A DNA stretch of 64,000 nt from Litoreibacter ascidiaceicola (lineage in GTDB: Bacteria > Pseudomonadota > Alphaproteobacteria > Rhodobacterales > Rhodobacteraceae), in the NCBI RefSeq assembly GCF_900129235.1, contig NZ_FQUV01000006.1, positions 62,001 to 126,000 of the forward strand, in the 5' to 3' direction. Positions 71 to 20,782 of the stretch are shown piece after piece. Position 1 is the first letter of the stretch. Each line of letters opens with the position of its first letter. The notes below the pieces were generated by a model. That model saw only the letters and a program-made list of their open reading frames with translations. It did no database searches and was not told the DNA's origin. A program made the translations under genes and the position numbers.

Positions 71-988
71 TCAGTTCGACTCTTTCTTAGGTAGCGCGGT
101 CTTGGAGTGGCGGTTTTTTTTCAGCGCTTCGAACCCGATGATCACGTCCAAAAGTTCGGTCGTGATTTCGCTCTGCCGCATCGACCGTGTCTCAGACATT
201 AGCGCATCCAAACGATCGTCCACCGATTGCTCCGCTTGGCTCATCAAAGCCAAACGTGCGGCGTTTTCGGTCACAAGCGCCTCAGCTGCCGCCCGAAACA
301 TGCTGGCGAACAGGTGGTTACGAATGAGTGCCTGAAAGAGCGTAGTCGGCGGCATAGAGAAAGCTGGAAGACTGCGTGAAACCCAAGGCTTGGTCTGCAG
401 TTCTTGCACGAGATCTCGGTCGAGGGGCAAAAGGGCAATCACCTCGGGTCGTTGACCTTTGTTCCCGTCCCGCGTGAAATAAGCGAGCGAGACCGCCACA
501 TCATCTGTTCCGTGGTCACGTCGCATATCATCAAGATGTCGGGTAAGCAGATTGGCAAGCCGGCCAATCCCATCCACGGATGCGGGCGGAAAGAACGTTG
601 TCTCAGGCGCAAGGCGCTGATCCCGCAAAGCGTCCGCCATCTGCGCGCCGACGCACAAAACGATGGTCTGTTGCGAGGCGTCGACAAGCTGTTCCGCAAC
701 ATGGCTGGCCAGTACCTCGTTGTAACTTCCGCACAACCCGTGATCCGACCCAAACACGATCAGGACTTTGGTCCTTGCCGCTGAAGATGAGCTCTCAAGC
801 GGACCAATCTGGCTGAGAAGAGCGTGGAGCCCGAGCAGAATAGTCTCGTGATAGGACTCAATTGCACGGGCAGCATGTTCATATGGCGCCGAATTGATCA
901 CCGATAGTGTCTTCATCGTATGCACGATGCTCCTGATACCTTCCATGCTGGCGGTGCGCCGCGACAGGACTTCAAGCGTTTGCGCCAT
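71..988 (-). CDS. atpG: N-type ATPase gamma subunit
   Basis: Central stalk subunit of the soluble headpiece of a rotary ATPase, coupling beta-subunit ATP turnover to rotation of the c-ring. The product is 305 residues, with the typical N- and C-terminal helices of F1 gamma (start [12 protein letters not shown]-terminal [14 protein letters not shown]). An open frame reaches 1024, but the ATG at 988 has a very strong GGGAGG ribosome site just upstream, so I place the start there; it overlaps the end of atpA by 17 bases. It is the last gene of the atpDCQRBEFAG series. The sequence is divergent from housekeeping gamma subunits, as is usual for N-ATPases. No terminator was recognised in the 70 bases left in the window. 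Confidence 0.88.
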
Positions 989-2501
989 TCTCGCCTCCCG
1001 TACTCGCGCGCGCAGCGCGTCCAAGGGCTATCATCTGGGTTTTGTCGTCTTCGGTCAGGGGTGCATTGTCTGCAATGCGCGTTGCCAAGTCCTGCAATTC
1101 ACACGCAGCCGCTTGTCTAAGCGTGGCCATTACGGTCCCGGTCTCTGCCTCGCTCAAGCCGTCGAACTGACCTTCCATCGCCGCCACCAGAACTGCCAGT
1201 TGCTCCACCGCTGGCATCGGATCCCGCTCGGCCTGTCGTAGTGCTGCACGCACCGCCGCACCGCGTGTCAAGCGCGCGCGCGTTGCGTCGTCCAAACGAG
1301 TGCCAAAGCGGGCAAAATCCTCCAACTCTTCAAATTGCGACAGCGTCACGCGCAGGTTGCCCGCGACAGACCGGAACGCCTTGGTTTGTGCCTTGCCGCC
1401 CACCCGGCTGACCGAGACCCCCAGATCGACCGCCGGAAATTGGTTTTTGCGCACAAGCCTCGGCGATAGGTATATCTGCCCGTCGGTAATCGAGATCAGG
1501 TTTGTGGGGATATAAGCAGACAGGTTTTCTGCCTGCGTCTCGACCACGGGCAAAACGGTAATCGACCCGCCGCTTGTGAACTGCCCTGCCCGTTCCAGCA
1601 ATCGTGCGTGGATATAGAAAATATCTCCGGGAAACGCCTCACGCCCCGGTGGGCGGCGCAAGAGAAGCGACAATTCACGGTAAGAACGCGCGTGGTGGGT
1701 AAGGTCATCAAGGATCACTAAGACGTCCCGCGCCTGATCCGAAAAATACTCCGCCATCGTGAGCGCCGCATAAGGTGCCACATAGGCCAGCCCTGCCGCT
1801 TCCTCATCTCCTGCAGCTAAAACAATCGTGCGCTCCGACATCCCACCGTCATGTATCGCGCCAATCACCTTTGCCACCGCATCCCCGCGCTGGCCAATGG
1901 CGCAGTAGATGCAGATCACATCGGTGTTTTTCTGATTGAGGATTGTATCAACCGCTACCGATGTCTTACCGGTCTGCCTGTCACCGATAATCAACTGGCG
2001 TTGACCCAGCCCGATGGGCACAGCCGCATCGATGACCTTGATCCCTGTGCCCAAGGGGCGCGCGATCGCTTGGCGATCCAAGATTTGCGGGGCTTCCGCC
2101 TCGACCGGCCGAACAGTTTGCACGCGGATTGGCCCTTTGTCGTCGCTTGGCGCACCAAGGGCGTTCACAACACGCCCCAACAATGCGTCACCAACCACTG
2201 TGCTGACAACCTCGTGGGTCCGCATCACGCTCTCACCGATGGTAACCCGGTCGGACGACCCCAGTAACACTACGCCAAGCCGTCCCGGTTCAAGGTCCAG
2301 AACGATGCCCTGCACGCCGCTGGCAAATTGCAGCAACTCATCGGATAACGCCCGCTCTAAACCGGCAACGATGGCGATCCCGTCGCCGACCTCTGCCACC
2401 AATCCGATCTCGCTGAGTTGCGGAGTGGGTGACGGTGCGTTTATCAGAAAATCAAGAATTCTATCGGGGTCTGCTCGGGCTCGCGTGACTTCACTGCTCA
2501 T
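972..2501 (-). CDS. atpA: N-type ATPase alpha subunit
   Basis: Non-catalytic nucleotide-binding subunit of the alpha3beta3 head. The 509-residue product has a Walker A motif GDRQTGKT at residues 173-180 and a Walker B region ending [13 protein letters not shown]. Gene order after atpF and before atpG, and the presence of atpQ and atpR upstream, mark it as the N-type (alternate) enzyme and not the housekeeping F-type; the housekeeping operon would be elsewhere in the genome. The start ATG at 2501 overlaps the end of atpF by 11 bases, suggesting translational coupling. Confidence 0.95.
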
Positions 2502-3261
2502 GGGATTTCACCCTAAGATCATTGCCCGCCGTCAATTGTTCTTCAATCAGGCAGGCAAGACCGTCGATGTAGGAATCAACAGTCCACGCGAGCTGTGCCC
2601 CGCCAACCCGCAAAACGAGACCCGGTGCTTGCGCTTCATCAGTGCCGAATCGCACTGCAACCTCGGGGAACGCTCCCCGGAGTTCCGAGGTCAATTCTTC
2701 TTCCACCAGATCTGGCAAGGAACTTTGCGACGTTATGACTGCCTCTGTCGCCTGCCCCGCCGCGCGCTGTAAATCGGGCACCATCGGCTTGGCTTGTTCG
2801 ACCAAGCGGTGCGCAATCCGCACTTCTAACGTCTCATCCGCGAGATCTCTGAGCGCCTTGCGGGTCAGTGACAAAAGCGCCCCAGCCCCTGCGCGATGCA
2901 TCTTCGCTGTATACTTCTGCGCCTCGTCGTCCAGATGCGTCTTCAACGCGTCATGTTCCCGCTCCAACCGCTTTTGCGCGTCAGCCAGCAGAACGTCGCG
3001 CTGTTCTTCGGCCGATTTCCGGATCGTCTCCGTCATCTCAGATTGTGCGACGTTCAAGGCATGCACCTTGTCTTGGTAGGCCTTCTCCACCGCCCGCGCC
3101 TGTTCCTTGGCAAGAACAGCTTCTTGCATTCGATCTCTGATCTCGACTTCACGCGCATCAATGCCGTCCAGAATGGGCCGGTATAGAAAACGCTTCAATA
3201 GCCAGACAAGCACCAGGAAGTTGGCGATCTGTGCCGCGACAGTGATCCAGTCAATCGACAT
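2491..3261 (-). CDS. atpF: N-type ATPase b subunit (stator)
   Basis: Peripheral stalk subunit joining the membrane part to the head. The 256-residue product has one N-terminal membrane helix (about residues 5-27), a long charged coiled-coil of roughly residues 30-130, and a C-terminal part of about 100 residues. It is much longer than the usual 150-160-residue b subunit. There is no separate delta gene in the operon, so the extended C-terminal part may take over the delta role, as proposed for N-ATPases; that assignment is inference. The gene starts three bases after the atpE stop. Confidence 0.9.
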
Positions 3262-3264
3262 AAA

Positions 3265-3552
3265 TCAACTACCTGCCGCCTGCGCCGCTTCCACCGCAGC
3301 CGTCCAAAATGGATTTGCGAAAATCAGGATCATCGCAACGACGAAGCAGTAAATCGCTGTAGATTCGATCATCGCAAGACTGACGAAAAGGGTGCGCGAA
3401 ATAGTTGAGGCTGCATCGGGTTGTTGGGCGATAGCATTCAGCGCGTTTGAAGCGGCTCGCCCTTCGCCAAGGGCCGGACCGATTGCGCCGAACGCTACAG
3501 TCAGCCCCGCCGTAAAGATAGAGATTGCAGCGATTAAGCCTAGGTCAGTCAT
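3265..3552 (-). CDS. atpE: N-type ATPase c subunit (rotor ring)
   Basis: Membrane rotor subunit of 95 residues: two hydrophobic helices joined by a polar loop that contains AQQPDA. The second helix carries the ion-binding MIESTAIY motif, with Glu63 followed by Ser64-Thr65. The first helix has a second carboxylate, Glu30, at the position filled by Gln32 in the Ilyobacter tartaricus Na+ ring. The Glu-Ser-Thr motif resembles Na+ rings, but a related N-ATPase ring from Burkholderia pseudomallei was reported, to my recollection, to be proton-coupled, so the ion here is uncertain. The gene overlaps atpB by 4 bases. Confidence 0.94.
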   Translation of the reverse strand: MTDLGLIAAISIFTAGLTVAFGAIGPALGEGRAASNALNAIAQQPDAASTISRTLFVSLAMIESTAIYCFVVAMILIFANPFWTAAVEAAQAAGS

Positions 3553-4238
3553 GGGTTTTCCTTTTCTGTATTTGGAGGGGTGGCAGTGGCACTGGAAATG
3601 TAAACAGTCGCCAAAATCGCAAAGATGTAGGCTTGGATCAGCCCCGTCAGCAGGCCCAGAACGTCCATCACAACTGGGAAGAAGAAGGGCGCAACACCGA
3701 GCAGGATCGCCGCGATAACGGCACCGCTCATGATATTCCCGTAGAGGCGGATGGCGAGAGAGATGCCGCGTGAAAATTCTGAGATGATGTTGAACGGCAG
3801 CATGATGAAAGACGGCTCAAGATAGGTTTTCAGATACCCGCCCAGACCCCGACTGGTAATCCCAAAAAGCGGCACCGCGATCAGAACGGACAGAGCCAGC
3901 GCTGTGGTTGTCGAGAGTGACGCCGTTGGCGGTTCAAACCCGGGTACGACCAACAGGAGGTTCGACATGGCGACGAACAAGAACAGCGTTCCGACATAGT
4001 ATAAAAGATGTCGTTCGCGGCGGCCCGCCACCTCTTCGATCTGGGCTTCGATGCCTTGTACAATCACTTCCAACATGGTCCGCCAGCGGTTTGGCGGGAC
4101 ATCCGGGCGCAAATTGCGCGTGATTAAGATCGCAGAAACCGTCAGCAACGCCATAACCACCCATGTGTAGAAAATCGTTGCGTTTATAGGGACACCCCAC
4201 GCTTGAAACATGATGGTTTGATCCGGGGACAGGTTCAT
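3549..4238 (-). CDS. atpB: N-type ATPase a subunit
   Basis: Membrane stator subunit that forms the ion half-channels against the c-ring. The 229-residue hydrophobic product has about five or six helices; the essential arginine lies in the motif LAIRLYGNIMSG near residue 165, matching Arg210 of E. coli subunit a. The ATG overlaps the end of atpR by 4 bases, and the stop overlaps the atpE start by 4 bases. Confidence 0.93.
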   Translation of the reverse strand: MNLSPDQTIMFQAWGVPINATIFYTWVVMALLTVSAILITRNLRPDVPPNRWRTMLEVIVQGIEAQIEEVAGRRERHLLYYVGTLFLFVAMSNLLLVVPGFEPPTASLSTTTALALSVLIAVPLFGITSRGLGGYLKTYLEPSFIMLPFNIISEFSRGISLAIRLYGNIMSGAVIAAILLGVAPFFFPVVMDVLGLLTGLIQAYIFAILATVYISSATATPPNTEKENP

Positions 4239-4534
4239 TGCGCACCTCCAGATGGGGTGCTGACGCTTGCAACGGTCAAACTAATGAAGCGGACGATGAC
4301 GAAGGCGGCGGCGTATCCCAAAAGGGACCATGGACCACCCTGCTCCACGACAATCCAACCAACACCCAGAAGGGCTGCAATCCTGATTGCGGCGCTGAGC
4401 ACCAATACAGCGACAGGTTTCACCGACCGCAAAGCCATCCGCATGCCCAAACCGAGACCCGCAAAGAACACGGCGCTCGTCGCGGCACCGATTGCCAATC
4501 CCAAAATCAAGGAGCTCCAATCAAAAGACATCAT
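4235..4534 (-). CDS. atpR: N-ATPase accessory membrane protein AtpR
   Basis: Small 99-residue protein with three predicted membrane helices, found only in N-type ATPase operons. Arginines sit inside or at the edges of the hydrophobic segments (Arg32, Arg36, Arg51, Arg82). In the published description of N-ATPases such arginines were proposed to meet the c-subunit carboxylates during assembly of the ring. This gene, together with atpQ, is the main evidence that the operon is N-type. Two ATGs lie in tandem at 4534 and 4531; both overlap or abut the end of atpQ. Confidence 0.88.
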   Translation of the reverse strand: MMSFDWSSLILGLAIGAATSAVFFAGLGLGMRMALRSVKPVAVLVLSAAIRIAALLGVGWIVVEQGGPWSLLGYAAAFVIVRFISLTVASVSTPSGGAQ

Positions 4535-4814
4535 TTGTCACCTCCTTCCTTGTTGATCCATGCCGCTGCGATAAATCCACCGACGACCACGCCCGCGAGG
4601 ATCAGGGCAAGCGTCCATGGAAACCCTTTAGGGGTGACGCGGTCGAGCCAGAGCCCCAGAAACGCTCCTCCAACGGTTGGAACGGCAATTGACCAGCCGA
4701 TCATCCCGAACGTCCCAATCCCACGCAACGGGCTTGGACCAGGGTTGTCACGGTTCGATTTCATCCGTTTGGCCTGGCGTGCGATATCGTCCACCGGTTT
4801 CTTAGGATTCTCCG

Positions 4815-4818
<4 letters not shown>
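4531..4818 (-). CDS. atpQ: N-ATPase AtpQ (AtpI-like membrane protein)
   Basis: A 95-residue protein with two predicted membrane helices (about residues 38-58 and 68-88) after a basic N-terminal segment, resembling the AtpI / F0F1-ATPase subunit family. AtpI-type proteins help assemble the c-ring. It lies between atpC and atpR, with 4-base start/stop overlaps on both sides, in the order typical of N-ATPase operons. Confidence 0.85.
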
Positions 4819-7536
<2,718 letters not shown>

Positions 7537-7537
7537 C

Positions 7538-8539
7538 TCAGGCTCCCAAGGTGGCGACAAGAACCGCCTTGATTGTGTGCATCCGGTTTTCGGCCTGATC
7601 AAAGACGATGGACGCAGCGCTCTCGAACACCTCTTCAGTGACTTCCATCGCATCAATGCCGAACTCGGCTTTGATCTCGGCCCCCACGGTGGTTTCGGCG
7701 TTATGGAATGCGGGCAGACAATGCATGAAACAGCTGCGCGGATTGCCCGTTTTGGCCATCACATCGGCGGTCACTTGATACGGTGTCAGCAGCTTGATCC
7801 GCTCACCCCATTTCTCCTTGGCCTCGCCCATGGACACCCAAACATCCGTGTAGATGAAATCGGCCCCTTTTACGGCCTCGTCCACATCTTCGGTAATGGT
7901 AATCTGGGCACCCGTCTCGGCGGCAATCGCTTGTGCCTCGTCGCGGATCGCCTGAACGGGCCAAAGGCTTTGGGGCGCGCAAAGCCGCACATCCATCCCC
8001 ATCTTGGCCCCACCGATCAACAAGCTGTCGCCCATATTATTGCCGGCGTCGCCCAGAAACGCATAGGACACCTGATGCAGCGGCTTATCGACATGCTCCT
8101 GCATGGTCAGGAAATCAGCCAAAATCTGCGTGGGGTGAAATTCGTTGGTAAGGCCATTATAGACCGGCACACCAGAGAAGTCGGCAAGCTGTTGGACGAC
8201 GTCTTGCCCAAAGCCACGGTATTCAATCGCGTCGTAAATCCGCCCTAGGACTCGCGCGGTGTCCTTGATGGATTCCTTGTGCCCGATGTGGGATCCTGTG
8301 GGTCCAAGATATGTGACCCGCGCACCCTGATCATAAGCGGCCACCTCGAAACCCACGCGCGTGCGCGTGCTGTCTTTCTCAAAGATCAGCGCGATGTCCT
8401 TGCCTTGCAGCGTCGGAACTTCCGTTCCGGTAATCTTCGCGGTCTTCAGGTTTGCTGCAAGTTTCAACAGGAACGTGATTTCGTGAGGTGTGAAGTCCCG
8501 CAGGGTCAGAAAGTGACGGTTTCTAAGATTGTAAGCCAT
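7538..8539 (-). CDS. arcB: Ornithine carbamoyltransferase, catabolic type
   Basis: Converts citrulline and phosphate to ornithine and carbamoyl phosphate in the deiminase pathway. The 333-residue product carries the carbamoyl-phosphate site STRTR at residues 57-61, the FHPTQ motif, HCLPAFHN, and the ornithine loop [12 protein letters not shown]. Length and operon position between arcA and arcC argue for the catabolic ArcB and not the biosynthetic ArgF, although the sequence alone does not separate them. Confidence 0.93.
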
Positions 8540-8543
8540 TGTA

Positions 8544-9578
8544 TTAGTTCCATTTCCTGGTTTCGGTCATGACCTCTTCGACATTTCGGCGGTAAGAGTA
8601 GGGCATCGGCTCTCCACGCCCTATTCGTAGCAGCAAAGAAGGGCGGCCCTCTGTCTCCCCAAGCAGCGTTGCAACTTGATCACGCTGCTCGGAGACTTCA
8701 ATCGCCTGATTAATATGCGCGTTCATCAGCCCCAAAGAGGTGGCGGCAAGCGCAAATCTCTGAAATGCACGGCCAGTTTCGACCCAATTCACTGGCGTGT
8801 TCCGGTCACTGACAAATACGGCCAAAGCAGAAGCGCTCGAAATCTGATGACGAATTTTGGCGGTTTCCGAACTTACCCGGAAAACGAAGGGGAAAATCAC
8901 GCGACCCACCCATTCGGGCAAACTCGGGTTGCCAAGGCACCGCCCAAATAACCCGTCGCGCCGAATTCTGGCCCCTCGCGCGCTGAAGCGTATCCACAGC
9001 ACAAGCTCAGCAACGAACTTGGGATTAGCCATTTGTTTTGCATTGCCAACAACGACCATTTCACGCAATGCGGCGATACATTCCGGTGATTGTATCAGGT
9101 GAAATGTCACGTCCGGACCAGCGGCTGCATCGGTCAATGCCAGTTTTTCAGCCTCAGTCAGCGGTTTGCCATCAAACAGGGAACGTGTCGTTTGCCGCAA
9201 TGGAATTGCCGCAATAAGCGGTGAAGCCGGGATGGCTTCTTCGACCAAGTCAATTTGTACTGAGGCGCCGTCGCTAGCAATACATGGCGTCGCGACGATA
9301 CCGAACCCTGACGCAGCGATCACAATATTTTCTGTCGCGCAGCCGAGACTGACGTGAAGATGGTGATCGTCAGGATCGACAACCACGCAACGGCGGCTAC
9401 GATCAATATGTACCGTGATGCGGTCCTCACTGACGTCGAAAAACCACGGTTGCGTGTTGTGGCTGTTGGTAGCCAATGTGGCGTAGCGAACCAATTCCCG
9501 ATTCCGGCGCATGGGCGCACGGCTTCGTGTGTCGAGCGGGCGGCGGCAAGTATCCATGGTGGCGGTGTAATCGCTCAA
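8544..9578 (-). CDS. Acg-family nitroreductase-like FMN protein
   Basis: Probable cytoplasmic FMN-binding oxidoreductase of the nitroreductase superfamily, closest in pattern to the mycobacterial Acg type. The sequence shows [12 protein letters not shown] near the N-terminus and a C-terminal [21 protein letters not shown] segment. An open frame extends to a GTG at 9605, inside arcA; a TTG at 9578 follows a GAGGGGGG ribosome site by a normal distance, and an ATG lies at 9557, so the start is uncertain. Roughly 344 residues. Nitroreductases are not part of the arginine deiminase pathway; Acg itself belongs to a hypoxia regulon, which fits an oxygen-controlled operon. The substrate is unknown. 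Confidence 0.75.
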
Positions 9579-9591
9579 TGTTTTACCCCCC

Positions 9592-10824
9592 TCACACCGG
9601 ATCACGGATTGTCGGGCAGCTCATGCAATGCCCACCGCCGCGGCCACGGCCCAACTCGGCACCAGGTATCGCAAGAACCTCGATTCCGGCCGCCTTGAGC
9701 GCCGCGTTTGTGTCGTCGTTGCGATCGTAGCCAATCACCACGCCGGGACGCAGAGCCAGAACGTTGTTGCCGTCGTTCCATTGCTCACGTGCGCGCTCTT
9801 CCTCGGTGTTGCCACCGGTCGGCACGATTTGCAGGCTTTTATAACCCAGCACCTCGGCGACAATGTCGAAGATCGGACGCGGGTCGAGGCGAAACTCCAG
9901 TGGCGCGCGGCCCTCGCCGGGGCGAATGTCGTAGCAGATCAACTCATCCGCGACCTCTTTGAAGGTCGTCACCACGTCACCGCCACACAGCGTAAAGACC
10001 GTATCCAGATGCATCGCGGCCCGCGACTTGGGAATGCGGAACGCCAGGACACGCTCAGCCGCCCCTGTATCAAATAACGCCTCGGCCAGTTGCCCGATCC
10101 CTTGTGGCGAAGACCGCTCACCCATACCGACCAGAACAGTGCCGTTGCCTACTGGCATGATGTCGCCGCCCTCCACTGTCGCAAGCCCGTGGTCTAGTGT
10201 GGGATCGCCCCAGTGGATCGTCGTTTTGCCCGCGAACTTGGGATGAAACTTGTAGATTGCGGTATTCAACAGCGTCTCTGGCCGTCTTGCCGACCAATGC
10301 ATGGGATTGACCGACACGCCACCATATATCCACGCAGAATTGTCGCGAGTGAACAGAGCATTGGGCAAAGGCGGCAGTATGAACCCGTGTTGGCCGAGAT
10401 AACTGCCGAAAAGCCCTGTTGCCTCAAAGTCTAGATCATCCGTGGCAAGCCCGCCCAGCAAGTACTCAGCAAGTTGCACGCCAGACAGTTCATCCATCCA
10501 ACTGCGCAACTCAGACATCATGCCAACGCCAATCTGATCTGGTGTGATCCGGTGATCCAACACCCAATCCCGGCCTTTGGGGATGTCCAGCGTCTCGGCC
10601 AGCAGATCATTGACGTCCAGAACTTCGACGCCCTCAGCGCGCATTGTCGCGGAAAAGACATCGTGATCCTTTTGCGCCTGTTTGACCCAAAACACGTCAT
10701 CAAAAAGCAAGTCTTGGCAGTTTTCAGGCGTTAGGCGACGGTGCGCCAGACCCGGTCTGCAAACGATCACCTGTCGCAGTTTTCCAGTTTCGGAATACAC
10801 GCCCAGTTTTTTTTCATTTTCCAT
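9592..10824 (-). CDS. arcA: Arginine deiminase
   Basis: Hydrolyses arginine to citrulline and ammonia, the first step of the pathway; the ammonia released raises cytoplasmic pH. The 410-residue product has the guanidino-group-modifying motifs [33 protein letters not shown] and the C-terminal catalytic cysteine segment GGGHCMSCP (Cys400 by comparison with known enzymes). The ATG at 10824 follows an AAAGGAAA ribosome site; the longer frame to 10854 overlaps arcD and looks untranslated. Confidence 0.96.
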
Positions 10825-10850
10825 AGAGATTTTCCTTTGAAAAGCGCGAG

Positions 10851-12320
10851 TCACAGGGCGCTGATTGCACCTGTCAACATCAGATAGGCCGCAACAATGG
10901 CGGCCCCGACGAGGCCAATCGCAATCAGGATTTCAACGGGAGAGAACATCTTTTCGTCTTCGGACTTACGCGCCCGGACATAGACAGGGATACCGACCGC
11001 ATAGATGATCGCACACATCAGCAAATACGTTGGCCCTGCCGCATAGACCAGCCATGCCCCGTAAACCATCGCCAGCGCTCCAATAGCCATATCACGACCA
11101 CGACTCTCTTGCAGATCATAGCTTTCGCCGGTCATCGCAAGCTTGAGCGCATAGGCACCAGAGAACACGTATGGGACTAGAATGGCAGTGGACGCGATGT
11201 AGAAAAGCGCGAGATAGGTCGAGTTCGCATATAGTGTTACGATCAGGACAACTTGCACACAGATATTGGTGATCCAGAGTGAACCAGATGGGGACCCATT
11301 TTCATTTTCTTTGCCAAAGGCCTCTGGCAGCATGCCTTCTTTGGCAGCTCGAAACGCAATTTCAGCTGCCAGCAAAGTCCAGCTCAGGAACGCACCAGCG
11401 ACCGAGATCACAAGGCCGAACCTGACCAACACCGAGCCCCAAGGGCCAACGACTGACTCAAGTACATAAGCCATGGAGGCGGCGGCAGGCAGGGCCGCGA
11501 GGTCGGGTTGGGACATGACGCCAAGCGACAACAGAGAGACAAGCAGATATAGCAAGAGAACTGTGACGAAGCCAAGAATGGTGGCTTTGCCGATGTCGCT
11601 GCGCTTACGGGCACGACCGGAGCCGACACTGGCCCCCTCGATCCCAATGAAGACCCACAGTGTTACCAGCATCGTGCTTTGAACTTGGGTCGTGATGCTT
11701 CCGAGTGAAAGGGATTCAGTGCCCCAAAAATCCAGCTCGAACGTCGGCATGTTGAAACCCACGACGGCAAGGACGATGAAAAGAAAGATGGGTGCCAGCT
11801 TGGCGACCGTAGTAATCGTATTGATGATCGCCGCCTGTCGCACCCCCATCAAAACCAGCGCATGAACAAGCCATACACAGATCGAGGCACCGACAATGGC
11901 CTGCCACGTATTCCCCTCTTCACCGAAGGGTGCATAGAAATAACTGAGCGCGCCAAAAATCAGAACGACGTAGGATACGTTGCCGATCCACGCGCTGATC
12001 CAGTAACCCCAAGCACTGTTAAAGCCCACAAAATTGCCGAACCCAGCACGCGCATAGGAATACGGCCCCGCGTCAAGCGCAGGTTTGCGGGTGGACAGGT
12101 TCTTATACACGAAGGCAAGCGCCAGCATCCCGACACCAGTAATGAGCCAGCCAATGGTGATAGCCCCAGCGGATGCCCCGCGGGCCATGTTCTGCGGCAG
12201 GCTGAAGACCCCACCACCAATCATGGATCCGACGACGAGAGCCGTCAACGGCAGCAAACCTAATGTGCCGGATTTGGTCTGGGTCGATAAATCGTCTTTT
12301 GCTGTCAGATCGGTCGACAT
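10851..12320 (-). CDS. arcD: Arginine/ornithine antiporter (APC superfamily)
   Basis: Inner-membrane exchanger of about 489 residues and 12-13 membrane helices, importing arginine and exporting ornithine without net energy cost. The N-terminal motif [14 protein letters not shown] is the substrate-binding helix signature of basic amino-acid antiporters. The ATG at 12320 lies 7 bases after AAGGAG; a GTG at 12326 is too close to that site. It is the first gene of the arc-atp series and has an FNR-type box upstream at 12374-12387. Confidence 0.92.
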
Positions 12321-12347
12321 CGGCACACTCCTTTGCGTTTCAGGCTA

Positions 12348-12387
12348 AAAATACAGGACTGACCCAAGCAGGATTGACGTGCGTCAA
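12348..12387 (-). promoter_or_regulatory. FNR-type promoter of arcD operon
   Basis: The perfect palindrome TTGACGTGCGTCAA occupies 12374-12387. A -10-like TATTTT (minus strand) lies at 12353-12348, centred 30 bases from the middle of the box. That is the spacing of a class II FNR promoter, in which the box is near -41.5. The arcD start is about 60 bases from the box centre. Confidence 0.75.
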
Positions 12388-12443: not shown

Positions 12444-14342
12444 TCACGACAGGATCATTGAAAAGTAGCCACCAATGAGCGCGAGGACGGTTGTTAGGGC
12501 ATAGCTCACCGGATAGGGCACTGCAGCAATTGAGCTTCCTGATTCCTCAATGATTGCATTCAAGCCCGGCGTGCTGTTGCGTCCGCCAGTTGTCGCACCG
12601 TCAGCGATAATCGAGTTAAGACCGAAGACCTTGGTCCCGACCCAAAAGGCTACCAATGGCGGAATGAGCGCTCCGGCAGTCCCGATCAATGCTAACCAAA
12701 GGATCGTGTCACCCCCTAGGGCTGAAATTACCTTCGGACCTACATTTGCTGAGAGAACGGCGACGAAGGCATTCAAACCAAAATCCTGAAGGAAGCTGCG
12801 GGCACCTTCATGCACCGGACCCCCAAATTCAGGGTTCCGGCTGCGAAAGTAACTGACGCCAACACCTGCGAGTATGCACCCAGCTGACGTCCCTAAGGCA
12901 AAGGGGATGCCCGAAATATGAACGGTCGCGATACCAACCAGATATCCCACCAACATCGCAAGAGACAGGTAAAGCACCTCGGACTTCAAGGTCGGCAAAA
13001 TGACATGGCCACCCAGTTGGCTGGCGGCTGCTTTGAGCGCCCCGTCAGGCCCGGTCAACCGCAGTACATCCCCAAAACGCACGTCGCTTTTGGGACCCAG
13101 TGGAAGTTCGTTGCCCGCGCGAAACAGGGCCTGCACAGCGATACCGCCTGTGCCTTGGCTTTCAAGCTCTTCCAGTGTCTTTCCCGAAATGGCGTGTGAA
13201 CCTACGTGAACGTCAGCAACCTCCATCGGGACGTTACGGGCCAGCGGATTATCGGATTCCGGCCCAATCAACTCCCCTTCCTCCAGAATGAGATCATGTA
13301 CATTTGCGCGCACGGTCACGATATCGCCGCTAGAAATGATCGGGTTTTCTGCCGGATCCAGCACGACATCGTCGCGCACGACACGCAGGATCGGGACTTG
13401 CGGAAAGTCACTCGCCAACTTTGTCAATGTGCGGCCAACAAAGCTCTCATGTCTGACCTCGAAAGCGCGAAGATCATAGGGCGAAAACCCGATCGTCAGA
13501 GCTCCGGGTGCGCCGGGAACTGGATGGACGGCACCCCCGCTAAAATCAGCCTCGGCCTGTTTTGCATCTGCAACAGCATCATAGCCGAAGATGCGCGGAA
13601 GATAGCGGATCAACAGGATGATACCCACGCTCGAAAGCACATAGCTAATGGCATAAGCCGCCGCCATGTTCGCCCCGACTTCTTCGATTGTCATATCAGT
13701 TGGCGGGATATAGGCGCCGCTGGCCAGTGCATTCTGACCTACGCCTAAAATGGCGGTGATGGTATAGCTGCCGGAAATAAGTCCCGTCGCGTATCCCGGT
13801 GCCAGCCCGGCCCACGCGGCCCCAAAATAGCAAATCAGCCAGTTCAAGACAAAGACGATAAGCCCGATCCCGACAAAAGCCAAACCGCCCTTGCGCAGCC
13901 CTGAAAAGAACTGCGGCCCAACTTTTAGACCGAGCGCATACATGAACAACAATAGCATGAAAGACGACAGAATTCCGGGAATGGTATACGTGATGCCGTA
14001 AGCCGCTTCGGCGATCATCGAGAAGATGACGCCCACAAGCAAGGTCCCCGCGGTAGACCCCAGTGAGATGCCTTTGAGGCTATATTTACCAATGAGCGAC
14101 CCCATCGCAAGCGCCAGTAAGACGAAGGCGATTGGCTGGTTTCCCAATAGCTGAAAAAAGCCGTGGAGCCCCGCTTCCGTGACCGGTTCGATTCTGTCCA
14201 AGACCTGCCCGACAACAATTTCAGGAGTAGTGGTTCCGCCGCTTTGTGCGACAACCGGACCACCAATCAGAAGCAATGGCGCGAAAAGAAAGTGGGTGTT
14301 GCGCTGCGTAATTGCGCCAACGCAATCATGTGCTTTAGCCAT
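12444..14342 (-). CDS. AspT-family amino-acid antiporter (YidE/YbjL type)
   Basis: Inner-membrane exchanger of about 632 residues. Two hydrophobic blocks of about five helices each flank a hydrophilic middle with two TrkA-C (RCK-C) domains, the layout of the aspartate:alanine exchanger AspT. The start at 14342 is an ATG that overlaps the end of the glutamate decarboxylase gene by 8 bases; the longer frame to 14435 is unsupported. Because of this coupling I infer glutamate:GABA exchange, taking the place usually held by GadC; the classical AspT substrate pair (aspartate/alanine) remains possible. The N-terminus (to about residue 40) is longer than in most family members. Confidence 0.8.
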   Translation of the reverse strand: MAKAHDCVGAITQRNTHFLFAPLLLIGGPVVAQSGGTTTPEIVVGQVLDRIEPVTEAGLHGFFQLLGNQPIAFVLLALAMGSLIGKYSLKGISLGSTAGTLLVGVIFSMIAEAAYGITYTIPGILSSFMLLLFMYALGLKVGPQFFSGLRKGGLAFVGIGLIVFVLNWLICYFGAAWAGLAPGYATGLISGSYTITAILGVGQNALASGAYIPPTDMTIEEVGANMAAAYAISYVLSSVGIILLIRYLPRIFGYDAVADAKQAEADFSGGAVHPVPGAPGALTIGFSPYDLRAFEVRHESFVGRTLTKLASDFPQVPILRVVRDDVVLDPAENPIISSGDIVTVRANVHDLILEEGELIGPESDNPLARNVPMEVADVHVGSHAISGKTLEELESQGTGGIAVQALFRAGNELPLGPKSDVRFGDVLRLTGPDGALKAAASQLGGHVILPTLKSEVLYLSLAMLVGYLVGIATVHISGIPFALGTSAGCILAGVGVSYFRSRNPEFGGPVHEGARSFLQDFGLNAFVAVLSANVGPKVISALGGDTILWLALIGTAGALIPPLVAFWVGTKVFGLNSIIADGATTGGRNSTPGLNAIIEESGSSIAAVPYPVSYALTTVLALIGGYFSMILS

Positions 14343-15717
14343 GATGAAACCCCGGCTTGGCTGTTGAATGCGGCACGGGGTTCTTTGACAAATGCTCAAT
14401 CGCGCGATTGATGTCTTTAAGCAAAAGCGCTGCAAGATCGCGGCTCACGCCGTGCCGGATCAGAATGCGCTGGACGACAGTTTCTTCGCGGTCAGCGGGG
14501 AGCGGATAGGACGCGATCTGCCAGCCACGCATGCGCACCCGCTCGGACAAGTCATATAGCGTGAAGCCGTGATCGCCCTCTTTCAGCTTATAAGCCACCG
14601 CAGGCAAACCGCCGTGCCCGTCATAAACCATCTCGAACTGGCCAATCTTGGCCAACTCAGCGCCCAACCATTGCGCTGTATCTGAGCAGGCTTGCTGAAT
14701 GGCGGTATACCCTTCACGCCCCAAACGCAGGAAGTTGTAATATTGCGCAATAATCTCGCCACCGGGGCGCGAGAAATTCAGTGCGAAGGTCGGCATATTG
14801 CCACCAAGATAATCGACATAGAAAATCAGATCATCGGGCAGATCGTCCTTTGACGCCCAGACAACCCAGCCCACACCCAGCGGTGCCAAGCCGTATTTAT
14901 GCCCCGATGCATTGATCGAACGCACACGGTCAATTTGAAAATCCCAAACTAGGTCGCGCTGAATGAAGGGGGCAATAAACCCACCGGAGGCCGCATCAAC
15001 GTGGATCGGGATATCGAGGCCGAGATCACGCTCCATTGCGTCAAGCTCCCGCGCCAACGCCTCGACAGGTTCATAGATGCCGGTAAAGGTGACGCCCAAT
15101 GCTGCGACGACACCAATCGTGTTTTCGTCACAGTGTTCCCGCAAATCCGCCGGTTGCAGGCCAAGTGCATCGCCCTCCAAAGGCACTTCACGGATCTCAA
15201 CATCGAAATAACGAGCGAATTTCTTCCAACAGATCTGGACTGGGCCCGTCACGATATTGGGTTTGGCTGTATCCTTGCCCTCAGCCTCGCGCCTTGCCCG
15301 CCACTTCCATTTGAGTGCAAGCCCGCCCAGCATCGCGGCCTCACTCGATCCGGTTGTTGAGCACCCAATCGTGTCCCAAGATTTTTCCGCATGCCAAAGA
15401 TCCGCAAGGATATGCACGCAGCGGCTCTCAATTTCCGCAGTCATGGGGTATTCGTCCTTGTCGATCATGTTCTTATCGACAGCGTCGGTCATCAACTGCT
15501 TAACCTCGTCTTCCACCCAAGTTGTGCAGAAGGTCGCAAGGTTCTGGCGCGCATTGCCATCTAGCAAGAGCTCATCCCGGACGAGTGCATAGGCCGCATG
15601 CGCTTCAGTCAGGCCGTCTGGCATCCGATATTTTGGCAGACTTCGCTCCGACGAACTCGTCGAATAGATATCTTCGATACTTGGGTGCAAATGATCTTTG
15701 ACTGCATGGATCGGCAT
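14335..15717 (-). CDS. gadB: Glutamate decarboxylase
   Basis: PLP enzyme that turns glutamate plus a proton into GABA and CO2, consuming protons in the cytoplasm. At 460 residues it is close in length to E. coli GadB (466). The PLP lysine is Lys274 in SINASGHKYG (E. coli Lys276). The C-terminus ends GFHHG, with histidines close to the position of E. coli His465, which controls pH-dependent auto-inhibition. An AAAGGAC ribosome site precedes the ATG. It has its own FNR-type box upstream and is translationally coupled to the AspT-like gene. Confidence 0.94.
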   Translation of the reverse strand: MPIHAVKDHLHPSIEDIYSTSSSERSLPKYRMPDGLTEAHAAYALVRDELLLDGNARQNLATFCTTWVEDEVKQLMTDAVDKNMIDKDEYPMTAEIESRCVHILADLWHAEKSWDTIGCSTTGSSEAAMLGGLALKWKWRARREAEGKDTAKPNIVTGPVQICWKKFARYFDVEIREVPLEGDALGLQPADLREHCDENTIGVVAALGVTFTGIYEPVEALARELDAMERDLGLDIPIHVDAASGGFIAPFIQRDLVWDFQIDRVRSINASGHKYGLAPLGVGWVVWASKDDLPDDLIFYVDYLGGNMPTFALNFSRPGGEIIAQYYNFLRLGREGYTAIQQACSDTAQWLGAELAKIGQFEMVYDGHGGLPAVAYKLKEGDHGFTLYDLSERVRMRGWQIASYPLPADREETVVQRILIRHGVSRDLAALLLKDINRAIEHLSKNPVPHSTAKPGFHHG

Positions 15718-15804: not shown

Positions 15805-15818
15805 TTGACCTGCGTCAA
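15805..15818 (-). promoter_or_regulatory. FNR-type box upstream of gadB
   Basis: Perfect palindrome TTGACCTGCGTCAA, centred about 95 bases before the gadB ATG, in the short gap between gadB and the end of the ABC permease gene. Only a poor -10 candidate was seen at the expected distance, so the promoter itself is less certain than the box. Confidence 0.65.
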
Positions 15819-15845: not shown

Positions 15846-16970
15846 TTAATTCGCAGCCATGGTTTTCCGGAACCGCATTAAGGCAAGTACAAAAAATATC
15901 GCGCTCAACCCTGCCATTACAAGCATATCGGGCCAAACAGTATTGAGCCCTGCGCCCCGATAGAGGATTGCCTGCGAGAAGGCGACGAAATGCGTAGACG
16001 GAGAGATTTGCATGATTGTTTGCAGCCAATCGGGAATGCTCTCCATGGGCGTGGTGCTGCCTGAAAGAAGGTTCATGATCACCAGAACCGGCAGCGCCAG
16101 AAGGCCAAACTGTGGCATCGATGTTGTGAACGTTGCCAGAAGTATTCCAAGGCCCGTGACGGACACCAGATAGAGCACCGTTCCAGCTACAAAAAGCGTG
16201 ATCGATCCTGCGATGGGAACTGCCAGAATGCCCTGCACCACCAGCCAGAGCGACAAGACAGCCGCCACGTTAATCGCCAAACCATTCGCCCAGATCTTCG
16301 CCAGCATGATTTCCGCTGGCGAGACGGGCATGACGAGAAGATGCTCAATCGTTCCATGTTCGCGCTCTCGGATGAGGGCCGCACCCGTGAGCAACACAGA
16401 CAGAATGGTTACGTTATTGATGACCTGCATCACGGAAGAGAACCATGTAGATTGCAGGTTTGGATTGAATTTCGCAGTCACAACCAGATTGATGGGCAGA
16501 GATGTGGATGTGTCATCGCCCGCGATGAATTTGGTGACTTCAGCCGAGATGATCTCCTGAAGAAAGACCGACCCGTTCCCGGCCTGCACCATCGCCGTCG
16601 CGTCGACGTTCAACTGAACTTCGGGAAGGCGCGCCGCGATCACGTCCGCCTCGAATCCGGGAGGGAAATACAGCACGAAGACATAGTCGCCTTTGTTCAT
16701 CACGCGGTCGATGTCGGTCGCAGAAATCTCCTCAGGCGTGTCAAACTCAGGTGGCAGAATCGCTTCTATGATCCGCCCTGTCAGGTCCGAACGGTCCAGA
16801 TCGACATAAGCCACCGAGGCATTCACAACTTCCAGCTTTGCCCCCGTCGCCACGGCGTAGACCGCAAAGCTGAAAATATAGACTATGAGCAAAAGCAGCA
16901 CTGGATCAGCACGAAGACTGCGCAGTTCCTTCAACCCGAGCCGATAGATATTTGACAACCACTGCATCAT
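15846..16970 (-). CDS. ABC-2 type exporter permease (YhhJ-like)
   Basis: Membrane permease of about 374 residues: one N-terminal helix, a large extracytoplasmic domain (about residues 45-170), then five or six helices in the C-terminal half, with motif REREHGTIEHLLVMPVS typical of ABC-2 permeases. Tandem ATGs at 16970 and 16967 directly follow the stop of the ABC fusion gene, whereas the longer frame to 17135 runs inside that gene. It should pair with the permease domain of the upstream fusion protein. Confidence 0.87.
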   Translation of the reverse strand: MMQWLSNIYRLGLKELRSLRADPVLLLLIVYIFSFAVYAVATGAKLEVVNASVAYVDLDRSDLTGRIIEAILPPEFDTPEEISATDIDRVMNKGDYVFVLYFPPGFEADVIAARLPEVQLNVDATAMVQAGNGSVFLQEIISAEVTKFIAGDDTSTSLPINLVVTAKFNPNLQSTWFSSVMQVINNVTILSVLLTGAALIREREHGTIEHLLVMPVSPAEIMLAKIWANGLAINVAAVLSLWLVVQGILAVPIAGSITLFVAGTVLYLVSVTGLGILLATFTTSMPQFGLLALPVLVIMNLLSGSTTPMESIPDWLQTIMQISPSTHFVAFSQAILYRGAGLNTVWPDMLVMAGLSAIFFVLALMRFRKTMAAN

Positions 16971-16971
16971 T

Positions 16972-19707
16972 TCATTTTTCCTGCTTGCCAAGCATCTGGA
17001 TCGACACAGCAATAAACAGAAATGCAAAGCCGACCAGAACGACATGATTTTGCCAAAGCTCCGCGAATCCAAGTTCCTTGGTGAATGTGCCAACGCTGAT
17101 TTGCTGATACCAAGCTGATGGAAAACCCAAACCAATCATGCGACCGCCGCCGGACAGCGACGAGACCGGGACCAGCAGGCCGGAAAAATTCACAGCTGGA
17201 ATAATTGCGATGATAGCAGCTGCAAAAGTGGCTGCGACCTGCGTTCTGGTAAATGTCGAAATCAACACGCCAAAGCCAGTAGTCGCCAAGACATACAAAA
17301 AGGTTCCAACAAGCAAAGCAAACCCCGATCCCCGGACAGGGACGTGGAACACGGCGTAGGCCACGACCAGAAGCGTCAGAAAGCTCAGCATCGCAATTAC
17401 GACATAGGGCAACTGCTTGCCCAAAACGAACTCGGTCCGCGTCACCGGCGTCGAGCGGAAATTGGCGATTGATCCAGTCTCTTTTTCCCGAACGACCCCC
17501 ATGGCCGCCATCATCGCTGGGATCAGGACAAGCATCAGCATGATGACCGACGGCACGATAGCAAAGACACTTTTGAACGCCTGGTTGTAGCGAAAGCGGG
17601 TCTCGATCTCTGCGCCGCTGGTGTCTATTGCCTCGCCGTAAGTGCGCTCAATCTGATCTTCCATGTAGGTTAAGGCCAGACCTTGCAGATACCCGCGCGC
17701 GGTTTCAGCGCGAAACGGCATGGCGGCATCTATGGCGATGCGGACTTCGGGTGACTCATTCCGCAAAAGCATACGCCCAAAGTCAGGGGGAATTTCAATT
17801 GCGATTGCGATTTCGCCTGCTCGCAGTCGCGCCTCCAGTTCCTCTGAACTCGTCGCTGAGGCTTGTTCCGCAAAATACCGCGACCCGGAGAAGGCCTCGA
17901 GCAAGGTACGGCTCTCAGACGTTTGATCCTGATCAAGAACAGCATAGGGAAGGTCCGTAACGTCAAAAGAAATGCCGTAGCCGAAGGTCAGCATCAAGAT
18001 GACCGGCCCCAGAAAGGCGAAGGTCAATCGCAGCGGGTCGCGCAGAATTTCCATTGTTTCGCGCAAGGCAAAGGCCCAGAGGCGTGCGAACTGGAAGCCG
18101 CTTTGGCGCTGAGGTTCCGGTGCTCTGAATTGGGTGGGCGATGACGATGCAGGTGTCGTTTGCATTTCCTCGATATCGCCTGCTGCCTCTCGCAGATAGC
18201 TGATAAAGGCGTCATTCAGAGTTGCCGCTTCCTTGGATTTTGTGATCTCTGTCGGTGCACCCACCGCCAGAACCCGCCCGGCATGCATCAGCGATATCCG
18301 GTCACAGCGCTCTGCCTCGTTCATAAAGTGAGTTGAGACAAAGATGGTGACTCCATTATCGCGCGACAAACCCACTAGATGCTGCCAGAACGCGTCTCGT
18401 GCAATGGGGTCCACCCCTGACGTTGGCTCATCAAGGATCAGAACTTCGGGCGCATGAATGACCGCAACAGCTAGCTGTAGCCGCTGACGAATACCAAGCG
18501 GTAGCGCGTCTGGTTTCTGATCAGCCTCGTCACGTAGTGCAAAAGTATCCAGCATTTCGGCCACCCGCCCTGCCCGTCTGGCAACCGGGATCTGATACAA
18601 TTCAGCGTGCAGATCGAGGTTCTGGCGCACTGTCAGTTCGCTATAAAGCGAAAAGGATTGCGACATGTAGCCAACCCGCTGGCGGGTTCGCATGTCGTTC
18701 GCATCCAGCGGCTCGCCGAACAGTAAGGCCTGCCCATCACTAGCCGGAAGCAGGCCCGTCAACATCTTCATTGTCGTCGTCTTGCCGCAGCCGTTGGAGC
18801 CGAGGAATCCGAAGATCTCGCCGCGTTCAATCTCGAAATTCACACCATCTACCGCAACGAAATCGCCGAACCGTTTGGTTAGAGATATCGCCTGAACTGC
18901 AGGGGTCCCTTCGACATGCGCGCGCGGCGGCACAACCACATCCCGGTGACCCTGGCGTGCTGCTTCGGGCAATAATGCGATGAAGGCCTTCTCCAACGTA
19001 GACTGGCCGGATTGTATCCGCACATCCTCTGGGGTTCCGGTCGCGATGACTTTGCCATCAGACATGGCTGCCAGCCAATCAAAACGCTCAGCTTCTTCCA
19101 TGTAGGCCGTTGCGACGATGACGCTCATGGTAGGGCGTTCGCTCCGGATACGGTCGATGAGGTCCCAGAACTGCTGACGCGAAAGCGGATCAACGCCCGT
19201 CGTCGGCTCGTCCAGAATCAATAGATCAGGATCATGGATCAGTGCCGAACACAGTGAGAGCTTTTGCTTCATACCACCAGACAGCTTTCCTGCGGGACGA
19301 TCTGGAAACGGGTCCAGTCCGGTGGCTTTCAACAGATCAGCGATACGCTCCTCGCGTTCCGCCTTGGATTGCCCGAAGAGCCTGCCAAAGAAGTCCAGAT
19401 TTTCTGTGACCGTCAGCGTTGGATAAAGGTTCCGCCCCAGACCCTGCGGCATGTAAGCGATGCGGGTGTTACAGTCCTTCAAATGGTGGCGATCCCGAAT
19501 GTCGCCCCTTAAAACTTGCACTTGCCCCGTCTGCACCTTGCGTACACCCGCAGCAAGCGCCAGCAATGTCGATTTACCAACACCGTCTGGGCCGATCAAT
19601 CCTGCCATACAGCCCGCAGGAATATCCAAACTAATGTCGTCCAGCGCCGCAGTCGCCCCATAGCGATGGGTTACGCTGGACAATTGGACAATGGGCGCAT
19701 CGGTCAT
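16972..19707 (-). CDS. RbbA-like ABC exporter: two ATPase domains fused to a permease
   Basis: A 911-residue fusion. The first ATPase domain has Walker A GPDGVGKS at residues 39-46 and signature LSGGMKQKL; the second has Walker A GSNGCGKT near residue 300 and a degenerate signature LPLGIRQRL; both have DEPT-[TS]-GVDP Walker B ends. The C-terminal part (from about residue 540) is an ABC-2 permease domain with an extracytoplasmic insert. The same architecture occurs in E. coli RbbA (YhiH), flanked by HlyD-like YhiI and permease YhhJ as here. Likely function is export; the substrate is unknown. A ribosome-linked ATPase role reported for RbbA is not supported or excluded by the sequence. Confidence 0.88.
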   Translation of the reverse strand: MTDAPIVQLSSVTHRYGATAALDDISLDIPAGCMAGLIGPDGVGKSTLLALAAGVRKVQTGQVQVLRGDIRDRHHLKDCNTRIAYMPQGLGRNLYPTLTVTENLDFFGRLFGQSKAEREERIADLLKATGLDPFPDRPAGKLSGGMKQKLSLCSALIHDPDLLILDEPTTGVDPLSRQQFWDLIDRIRSERPTMSVIVATAYMEEAERFDWLAAMSDGKVIATGTPEDVRIQSGQSTLEKAFIALLPEAARQGHRDVVVPPRAHVEGTPAVQAISLTKRFGDFVAVDGVNFEIERGEIFGFLGSNGCGKTTTMKMLTGLLPASDGQALLFGEPLDANDMRTRQRVGYMSQSFSLYSELTVRQNLDLHAELYQIPVARRAGRVAEMLDTFALRDEADQKPDALPLGIRQRLQLAVAVIHAPEVLILDEPTSGVDPIARDAFWQHLVGLSRDNGVTIFVSTHFMNEAERCDRISLMHAGRVLAVGAPTEITKSKEAATLNDAFISYLREAAGDIEEMQTTPASSSPTQFRAPEPQRQSGFQFARLWAFALRETMEILRDPLRLTFAFLGPVILMLTFGYGISFDVTDLPYAVLDQDQTSESRTLLEAFSGSRYFAEQASATSSEELEARLRAGEIAIAIEIPPDFGRMLLRNESPEVRIAIDAAMPFRAETARGYLQGLALTYMEDQIERTYGEAIDTSGAEIETRFRYNQAFKSVFAIVPSVIMLMLVLIPAMMAAMGVVREKETGSIANFRSTPVTRTEFVLGKQLPYVVIAMLSFLTLLVVAYAVFHVPVRGSGFALLVGTFLYVLATTGFGVLISTFTRTQVAATFAAAIIAIIPAVNFSGLLVPVSSLSGGGRMIGLGFPSAWYQQISVGTFTKELGFAELWQNHVVLVGFAFLFIAVSIQMLGKQEK

Positions 19708-20684: not shown

Positions 20685-20782
20685 GATCTGCAATCCATCA
20701 AAAATACTCCCGAAACGTGAGGGGAACGACGTGTCTTAGGTCGCTCAATGACCGCCAATTGCCATCCCAGCTTGTCTGGTGA

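Follow-up and report, generated by a model that had tools for sequence, protein, structure and literature searches.

The window analyzed here, a 64,000-nucleotide (nt) stretch of contig NZ_FQUV01000006.1 of Litoreibacter ascidiaceicola, contains at positions 71-12326 of its minus strand a series of genes in which those of the arginine deiminase (ADI) pathway run directly into those of an N-type ATPase (N-ATPase). Fourteen open reading frames (ORFs), with zero internal stops, encode in this order ArcD, ArcA, an Acg-family FMN oxidoreductase, ArcB, ArcC and then the products of atpDCQRBEFAG. An original prediction made from the sequence alone had proposed this gene order, and the minus-strand ORFs and their matches to family models bear it out; the gene that it placed between arcA and arcB as a nitroreductase is present, and its family is that of the Acg-type FMN oxidoreductases (NF047509). 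The genes of the series are as follows.

10851..12326, minus strand: arcD, APC-type arginine-ornithine antiporter (TIGR03810, 612 bits, cut-off 591)
9592..10854, minus strand: arcA, arginine deiminase (NF002381, 545 bits, cut-off 414; TIGR01078, 470 bits, under its cut-off of 489)
8544..9605, minus strand: Acg-family (Rv3131-like) FMN-binding oxidoreductase (NF047509, 279 bits, cut-off 199)
7538..8539, minus strand: arcB, ornithine carbamoyltransferase (NF003286, 532 bits, cut-off 515)
6613..7536, minus strand: arcC, carbamate kinase, 307 residues from ATG (TIGR00746, 365 bits, cut-off 358; NF009008, above cut-off)
5222..6616, minus strand: atpD, N-ATPase beta subunit with a P-loop (best model TIGR03305, 740 bits, 12 bits under cut-off)
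4815..5225, minus strand: atpC, N-ATPase epsilon subunit (TIGR03166, 110 bits, above cut-off)
4531..4818, minus strand: atpQ (PF09527 and TIGR02230, both above cut-off)
4235..4534, minus strand: atpR, hallmark subunit of N-ATPases (PF12966, 34 bits, cut-off 26; TIGR03165, 37 bits, under its cut-off of 55.5)
3549..4238, minus strand: atpB, N-type a subunit with SLAIRLYGN (TIGR03306, 305 bits, above cut-off)
3265..3552, minus strand: atpE, c subunit with GEGR in helix 1 and ESTAIY in helix 2 (TIGR03322, 145 bits, above cut-off)
2491..3261, minus strand: atpF, N-type b subunit, 256 residues (best model TIGR03321, 167 bits, under cut-off)
972..2501, minus strand: atpA, N-type alpha subunit (best model TIGR03324, 629 bits, under cut-off)
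71..1024, minus strand: atpG, N-type gamma subunit, starting at TTG 1024 or ATG 988 (best model TIGR03323, 226 bits, under cut-off)

The genes are tightly packed. Measured from each stop to the next start (with the longest ORF or the first ATG, where these differ), the distances are -4 or 26 nt for arcD-arcA, -14 or 34 nt for arcA-oxidoreductase, 4 nt for oxidoreductase-arcB, 1 nt for arcB-arcC and -4 nt for arcC-atpD; they are -4 nt at each of the junctions atpD-C, C-Q, Q-R, R-B and B-E, 3 nt at atpE-F, -11 nt at atpF-A and -53 or -17 nt at atpA-G. The predicted four-base overlap of arcC and atpD is therefore present, and the predicted limit of about 30 bases on the gaps is correct to within 4 nt, the widest gap of 34 nt arising only with the later ATG for the oxidoreductase. 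The series begins at ATG 12320 or GTG 12326, and as an observation its continuity over 14 genes is confirmed.

Both halves show the features by which their kind is recognized. The atp genes have the order atpDCQRBEFAG, include atpR and specify a c subunit with two carboxylates, and the genome has an additional, separate F-type beta gene on contig C13 (820 bits; beta was the sole F-type subunit searched for). The models for alternate F1F0/N-ATPases are matched above their cut-offs by AtpB, AtpC and AtpE, and are the best match, at scores under their cut-offs, for AtpD, AtpF, AtpA and AtpG. P-loops are seen in both the alpha and beta subunits, and AtpB retains the essential arginine of subunit a (in SLAIRLYGN). 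As in ADI operons, arcA, arcB and arcC lie together with an arginine/ornithine antiporter gene and their catalytic motifs are intact: FTRD, GGHCMSC (GGHCxxC), STRTR and HCLP are present in the arc enzymes, FTRD and GGHCxxC being those of ArcA. An Acg-family oxidoreductase gene also lies between arcA and arcB in Salinihabitans flavidus (L186), where the arc genes are divergent; the Acg family belongs to the mycobacterial dormancy regulon.

Recurrence and descent of the linked genes

The adjacency of arcC and atpD was followed in named loci of relatives, these being the best 80 of 573, chosen by their match to 12 sequences from close relatives. Of these 80, 22 have an intact arcC ahead of atpD, a count that is not an estimate of frequency, because the loci are best matches to sequences chosen from close relatives, and that leaves out L126 (cut at a contig end), the arc remnants or ‘fossils’ described below and L176, with arc genes at a distance of 5.5 kb. 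Some ORF calls in the loci are antisense, and protein clusters were used only after a homology check. Among these best 80, the alphaproteobacterial carriers are Yoonia, Sulfitobacter, Roseovarius, Palleronia, Litorivita, Silicibacter lacuscaerulensis, Lutimaribacter, Jannaschia and Oceaniovalibus, and the gammaproteobacterial ones are eight Marinobacter and one Halomonas. Plasmid pRA02 of Roseicitreum antarcticum, typed as conjugative, carries the order transporter-arcA-argF-arcC-HdeD-atpD and onward. After de-duplication, arcC is found upstream of N-ATPase genes in 27 loci, 18 from Alphaproteobacteria and nine from Gammaproteobacteria; two further loci of this kind, L224 and L225, were found later and stand outside the 27. 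A possible atpD start lies at -4 relative to arcC in 10 of them, at -1 in one, at 9-27 nt in nine and at 52 nt or more in one, and all of arcA, arcB and arcC are present in 24. The adjacency is conserved, largely co-inherited and recurrent, and we therefore rejected the possibility, raised with the original prediction, that it is a curiosity of one genome; the pairing recurs in relatives and in another class.

The genes around this core differ among the relatives in transporter type, in the HdeD-like gene and in the oxidoreductase. Among 31 linked or fossil loci, the transporter is an APC-type ArcD in four and a YfcC/DcuC-type antiporter in 20; two non-homologous exchangers are known in arc clusters, according to the available text of PMC5300872. 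A gene for an HdeD-like (DUF308) membrane protein lies between arcC and atpD in L159, L164, L171 and L206 (L206:10866-11426). Partial arc blocks are also seen: Halomonas urmiana (L148) has arcA alone ahead of atpD, and an uncultured Sulfitobacter assembly (L151) has arcA-arcC.

As a less biased sample than the best-match loci, we surveyed 248 genomes of the family (247 genera), scoring N-ATPases by TIGR03306 (the N-type a subunit) and ArcA by matches of >400 bits. The N-type a subunit was found in 43 genomes and ArcA in 31, and 16 have both, versus 5.4 expected (Fisher 2.2e-6). PF12966 alone finds 38 of the 248, versus 43 with TIGR03306, and thus under-counts N-ATPases; its match in G505 (E 8e-4) was taken as false, the locus (L104) being without a match to the window's genes. 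ArcA and N-ATPase genes lie within 10 kb of each other in 8 of the 16 genomes having both: the arc genes are ahead of atpD in G000, G035, G134 and G189, divergent in G235 and downstream in G013, G080 and G179. The two sets are 16-25 kb apart in G244 and G071, and on different contigs in the other six, some of which are very fragmented assemblies. The arcA-to-atpD arrangement is thus present in 4 of the 43 N-ATPase genomes of the family (G000, G035, G134 and G189). In G055 (L084), arcC alone, intact, lies directly ahead of atpD, in a genome without a detectable arginine deiminase (no ArcA match was found). The ArcA counts exclude weaker matches and the broken ArcA of G225, in which arginine deiminase matches lie in pieces (G225:C5:291880-292506), one with an internal stop, and the N-ATPase is on another contig.

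A second survey covered 244 genomes of the gammaproteobacterial order of G316, whose AtpD groups with Marinobacter, with ArcA scored at E <= 1e-60. N-ATPases were found in 22 genomes and ArcA in 32, and both in nine, versus 2.9 expected (Fisher 5.7e-4). Five of the nine have the two within 11 kb, with the arc genes upstream in two and downstream in three (L221-L223, all of one genus). The p-values for adjacency in both surveys assume random gene placement. The co-occurrence in 16 of 248 family genomes (5.4 expected) and the distance within 10 kb in 8 of those 16 argue that the pairing of the ADI and N-ATPase genes is not due to chance.

To trace the descent of the linkage, trees were made for AtpD, ArcC and ArcA+ArcB (ArcAB). 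The AtpD tree, a quick tree of 129 rows with a simple model in which long branches meet outside the clade of interest, was built after removal of five duplicate rows; five rows had too little upstream sequence to be labelled, ‘fossil’ labels were assigned by hand, and L063 and L176 were labelled ‘none’ although arc genes lie farther off. Every one of the 27 arcC-upstream loci falls in a single AtpD clade of 68 rows (SH-aLRT, the Shimodaira-Hasegawa-like approximate likelihood ratio test, 100), together with the three fossils, one locus that has arcA upstream and 34 rows without upstream arc genes. Divergent and downstream arc arrangements fall in two other AtpD clades; the gammaproteobacterial downstream loci L221-L223 were found later, outside the tree. 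Across the 27 loci, AtpD and ArcC distances are correlated (Mantel r 0.73, p 1e-4), and in a small control of 7 genomes with the halves 16-25 kb apart or on different contigs they are not (r -0.14, p 0.70). The ArcC and ArcAB trees recover most AtpD subgroups, namely the window's, a Jannaschia group and two Marinobacter groups. Silicibacter L161 lies with the window's group in the ArcAB tree and apart from it in the AtpD tree; L154 and L164 entered the ArcAB tree without most of ArcA, as their extraction began before the true start, and these genes have no later stop. The distance correlation and the shared subgroups indicate that the two halves have for the most part moved as a pair, also between classes, and have been reshuffled to some extent.

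Three relatives without intact arc genes (L205, L127 and L129) retain arc remnants ahead of atpD. On a plasmid of Sulfitobacter sp. SK012 (L205, 11396-11632), a small ORF annotated as a hypothetical protein overlaps atpD and has arc-like ends joined to each other: an arcD-like start with 56% identity over 32 residues (a weak match of 32 bits) and an arcC-like end with 53% over 47 residues (52 bits). An FNR-type site lies 187 nt ahead of it. Tateyamaria L127 has kept the end of arcC with a 4-nt overlap, and Roseovarius A-2 (L129) has kept pieces of the transporter gene. The fossils represent at least two losses, and not certainly three, because the AtpD tree places L127 and L205 as sisters.

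Promoter signals and proposed role

Just one FNR/FixK-type site precedes the series, at a distance of 47 nt from the GTG of arcD.

12374..12387, minus strand: FNR/FixK-type site, TTGACGCACGTCAA

The strict palindrome TTGAYNNNNRTCAA has seven exact occurrences in the window versus 0.25 expected, and 0 of 100 shuffles reach seven; this significance is somewhat optimistic, because the strict form was picked after a first list had been inspected, and its placement in other loci and in published sites was examined afterwards. A scan allowing two mismatches was dropped as a signal, as it gave 43 sites versus 27.75 expected and 2 of 100 shuffles were equally high. With the strict form, no site was found inside the 14-gene series. 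Sites located by chromatin immunoprecipitation on microarrays for Rhodobacter sphaeroides FnrL share the TTGAYNNNNRTCAA form, judging from the available text of PMC2908626.

The position of this site in relatives is consistent with a single promoter. Of the 18 alphaproteobacterial arcC-upstream loci, 13 have an exact FNR-type site ahead of the first gene; in ten it lies ~1.5-1.7 kb ahead of arcA, i.e. in front of the transporter, and in three, 137-278 nt separate it from the first arc gene that is left. Little else is conserved in an alignment of the upstream regions beyond the site and the start region. In many Alphaproteobacteria the site thus precedes whichever gene is first, which is what a single promoter for all of the genes would lead one to expect. 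The fossils, in which ends of the arc block are still found before atpD, agree with such a shared promoter. A candidate regulator gene of the Crp/Fnr family lies convergent to the series, ~1.2 kb beyond atpG; the interval contains a small ORF of ~100 codons, and the best model for the regulator is FixK (117 bits, under the cut-off of 300). A Crp/Fnr gene in this downstream position is not peculiar to the window: nine loci (L106 and L137 being from the same genome) contribute to the protein cluster in which the annotated Crp/Fnr gene of pRA02 falls.

Alternatively, the two halves could be abutting operons that are expressed separately, with an accidental 4-nt overlap and an atpD promoter inside arcC. 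Distances of 232-1400 nt between the halves in some relatives would suit this arrangement, as would the gap of 280-4229 nt to the transporter gene in the downstream loci L221-L223 and an FNR-type site 290 nt ahead of atpD in L105. We nevertheless regard it as very improbable. In 30 of 31 rows (these including one duplicate pair, two fossils and L148), the stretch from the first arc gene to atpD is free of FNR-type sites, whereas 19 of 99 loci without upstream arc genes do have one within 700 nt of atpD, compared with ~2.2 expected from the overall rate of 0.032 sites per kb (the 99 are not de-duplicated, L078 being the same as L167, and include the fossil L129). The retention of the ends of the arc block in the fossils also speaks against separate operons, as does, weakly, the absence of sigma70-like promoter or terminator-like consensus sequences from minus-strand positions 4491-11857, which include arcC, a region in which all matches were at or below the level of shuffled sequences.

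Taking these observations together, we think that the series is probably an old, largely co-inherited low-oxygen operon, in which ATP from the arc pathway would be spent by the N-ATPase on ion export. When respiration fails, a regulator of the FNR/FixK family would turn on one promoter ahead of the arginine transporter gene, and arginine would be imported against ornithine. ArcA, ArcB and ArcC would degrade it to give one ATP and two ammonia per arginine, and the N-ATPase, made from the same message with its translation coupled at the arcC/atpD overlap, would hydrolyze the ADI-derived ATP to export ions (Na+ is predicted), thereby keeping up ion balance and the membrane potential, with protons being taken up by the ammonia. 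The same pairing in many relatives and in another bacterial class suggests that the two halves work together. A broader proposal can be made only tentatively: carbamate kinase and a Na+-pumping rotary ATPase may be produced in fixed proportion from one message so that arginine sustains a sodium-motive force without respiration, and this unit may have formed, or re-formed, in several N-ATPase lineages, crossing classes, residing on plasmids and shrinking to arcC and the pump (G055) or to the pump with arc stumps.

Several observations weigh against a single old operon. Among the labelled rows of the AtpD tree, 89 of 124 are without arc genes in the stretch fetched, on which ground we rejected the idea that arc genes always accompany N-ATPases; the pump can do without them, as it has been retained where they were lost. 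On the AtpD tree, at least 17 changes are required for the arcC-upstream label. In the ArcC and ArcAB trees the linked rows do not form one clade (at least 4 and at least 3 changes, respectively; 0% of bootstrap trees), and the unlinked L119, L121 and L176 are interspersed with them. More than one history is therefore plausible, and the 17 or more label changes fit either one fusion with many losses or several gains. Within the 27 loci, arcC and atpD are separated by at least 232 nt in six, four of which have the HdeD-like gene between them, and three have incomplete arc genes (L151 is without arcB; L084 and L171 are without arcA and arcB). No exact FNR-type site was found in five of the 18 alphaproteobacterial linked loci (L058, L162, L164, L169 and L206) or in any of the nine gammaproteobacterial ones. 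The site in L105 lies inside the arc block, in addition to two in front of the transporter, and may mark an internal promoter in this relative only.

The c subunit bears on the ion that would be exported. It has a glutamate in helix 1 (GEGR) and ESTAIY in helix 2, and on the basis of these motifs it is predicted to be of the Na+ type. Within the window's AtpD clade, the helix-1 glutamate is found in every one of the 68 c subunits and ESTAIY in 66, the other two having ESSGIY; rows of another N-ATPase clade carry ETTAIY or ETMAIY. In the available accounts, a related N-type c ring with two carboxylates, that of Burkholderia pseudomallei (c17), is H+ specific (PMC5376962), and the missing ESTxxY motif in Futiania was interpreted as indicating H+ (PMC9927469). 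The original prediction had proposed pH and ion homeostasis; from the motifs, maintenance of a Na+ gradient and of the membrane potential would seem at least as likely a function as direct expulsion of protons. Since rotary ATPases are reversible, as the available text of PMC5376962 notes, the enzyme could also act mainly as an ATP synthase driven by a sodium gradient, with the ADI genes adjacent merely as another source of ATP. We consider this extremely improbable, as the host has a separate F-type beta gene, N-ATPases have been proposed to be pumps (available text of PMC9927469 and PMC5376962), and a pairing with substrate-level ATP formation would make more sense for hydrolysis.

Known systems and the wider neighbourhood

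Both modules of the series are known, and what is new, provisionally, is their combination in one row. N-ATPase operons of the order atpDCQRBEFAG were reportedly described by Dibrova et al. in 2010. The Pseudomonas-type arcDABC operon (Gamper et al. 1991, listed among the references of PMC3281130) is under ANR/FNR control; it shares with the window the order antiporter-ArcA-ArcB-ArcC and an FNR-type site ahead of arcD. Unlike it, the window's series runs unbroken into nine ATPase genes and has the Acg-family oxidoreductase gene between arcA and arcB. In streptococci, the ADI and F-ATPase genes are unlinked. ADI-derived ATP in streptococci may go to proton expulsion while ammonia consumes protons; in contrast to the window, their acid tolerance involves the housekeeping F-type enzyme and H+ (PMC5594096, available text). 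Known N-ATPase operons resemble the window's in gene order, in having AtpR and AtpQ, in the two carboxylates of the c subunit and in being accompanied by a housekeeping F-type enzyme. A difference lies in the c subunit: that of the window carries the complete ESTAIY motif, and that of B. pseudomallei forms an H+-specific ring. The available portions of the B. pseudomallei and Futiania accounts make no mention of ADI genes (PMC5376962, PMC9927469). Full-text literature searches, with most subscription journals outside their coverage, found no description of an ADI/N-ATPase operon fusion, and for that reason ‘undescribed’ is provisional; the word ‘ATPase’ is absent from the main text of a survey of 124 arc clusters, and ‘arginine’ and ‘carbamate’ are absent from a study of ATP synthase loci. 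The recurrent genetic bond to a respiration-free ATP pathway points to a concrete role for the N-ATPase, ATP-driven ion export under anoxia, and offers a testable system in culturable marine bacteria, with which naturally arc-less relatives, and those with arcC only, can readily be compared.

Among published elements the nearest, as far as its available description goes, is Tn6097 of Paracoccus ferrooxidans, which has an arcABCD module and an HlyD/DrrA/DrrB-like ABC block; similar genes lie a few kb apart in the window (PMC3281130). It differs from the window in being a composite transposon, and no N-ATPase is among its described modules (PMC3281130). The upstream neighbours of the series in the window are the following.

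12444..14435, minus strand: AspT-like antiporter, outside the operon (TIGR03802, 350 bits, under cut-off; Asp-Al_Ex)
14335..15717, minus strand: glutamate decarboxylase (TIGR01788, 618 bits, above cut-off)
15805-15818: FNR-type site, ~88 nt ahead of the glutamate decarboxylase gene
15846..20693, minus strand: block of ABC permease, RbbA and HlyD genes

Farther upstream, on the opposite strand, lie phaC, fabI, a gene for a MaoC-PTA fusion and ackA, and the series sits within a larger neighbourhood of likely low-oxygen genes. In several relatives, homologues of the HlyD-RbbA-ABC permease genes are found 0.2-0.7 kb before atpD or in the vicinity of the arc genes, and phaC, ackA and pta occur near N-ATPases both with and without arc genes.

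These neighbours suggest another explanation, that mobile low-oxygen cassettes were collected together by the same regulator, plasmids or islands and share a promoter without any special energetic coupling. Such an island would account for the glutamate decarboxylase and AspT-like genes, the RbbA-HlyD block, phaC, fabI and pta-ackA in one neighbourhood, for the presence of phaC, ackA and pta near N-ATPases whether or not arc genes are there, and for the plasmid location of one linked unit and one fossil-bearing unit; Tn6097, in its available description, carries arc genes together with HlyD/DrrAB genes and no ATPase genes (PMC3281130). We consider it unlikely but deserving of attention, as the arc/N-ATPase linkage takes several forms and is seen in several lineages, a close arcC/atpD junction has often been retained and the halves co-diverge. 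The proposal of an operon in which the two halves cooperate thus remains the one we favor, and the earlier interpretation is partly supported. What had been called a self-contained, arginine-fuelled machine is one operon-like unit that is conserved, largely co-inherited and recurrent; ‘self-contained’ overstates the case, because of the larger neighbourhood of likely low-oxygen genes and because relatives differ in transporter type, HdeD-like gene and oxidoreductase.

The glutamate decarboxylase and AspT-like antiporter genes form a second amino-acid-based acid or energy system adjoining the arc operon. The window's HlyD-RbbA-ABC permease block resembles the third module of Tn6097 in the available description of that element, and in L070, L129, L133 and L144, which are without arc genes, such a block ends 0.16-0.7 kb ahead of atpD. 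Within the rbbA coding sequence of the window, at positions 17923-17936, lies a perfect FNR palindrome, TTGATCCTGATCAA.

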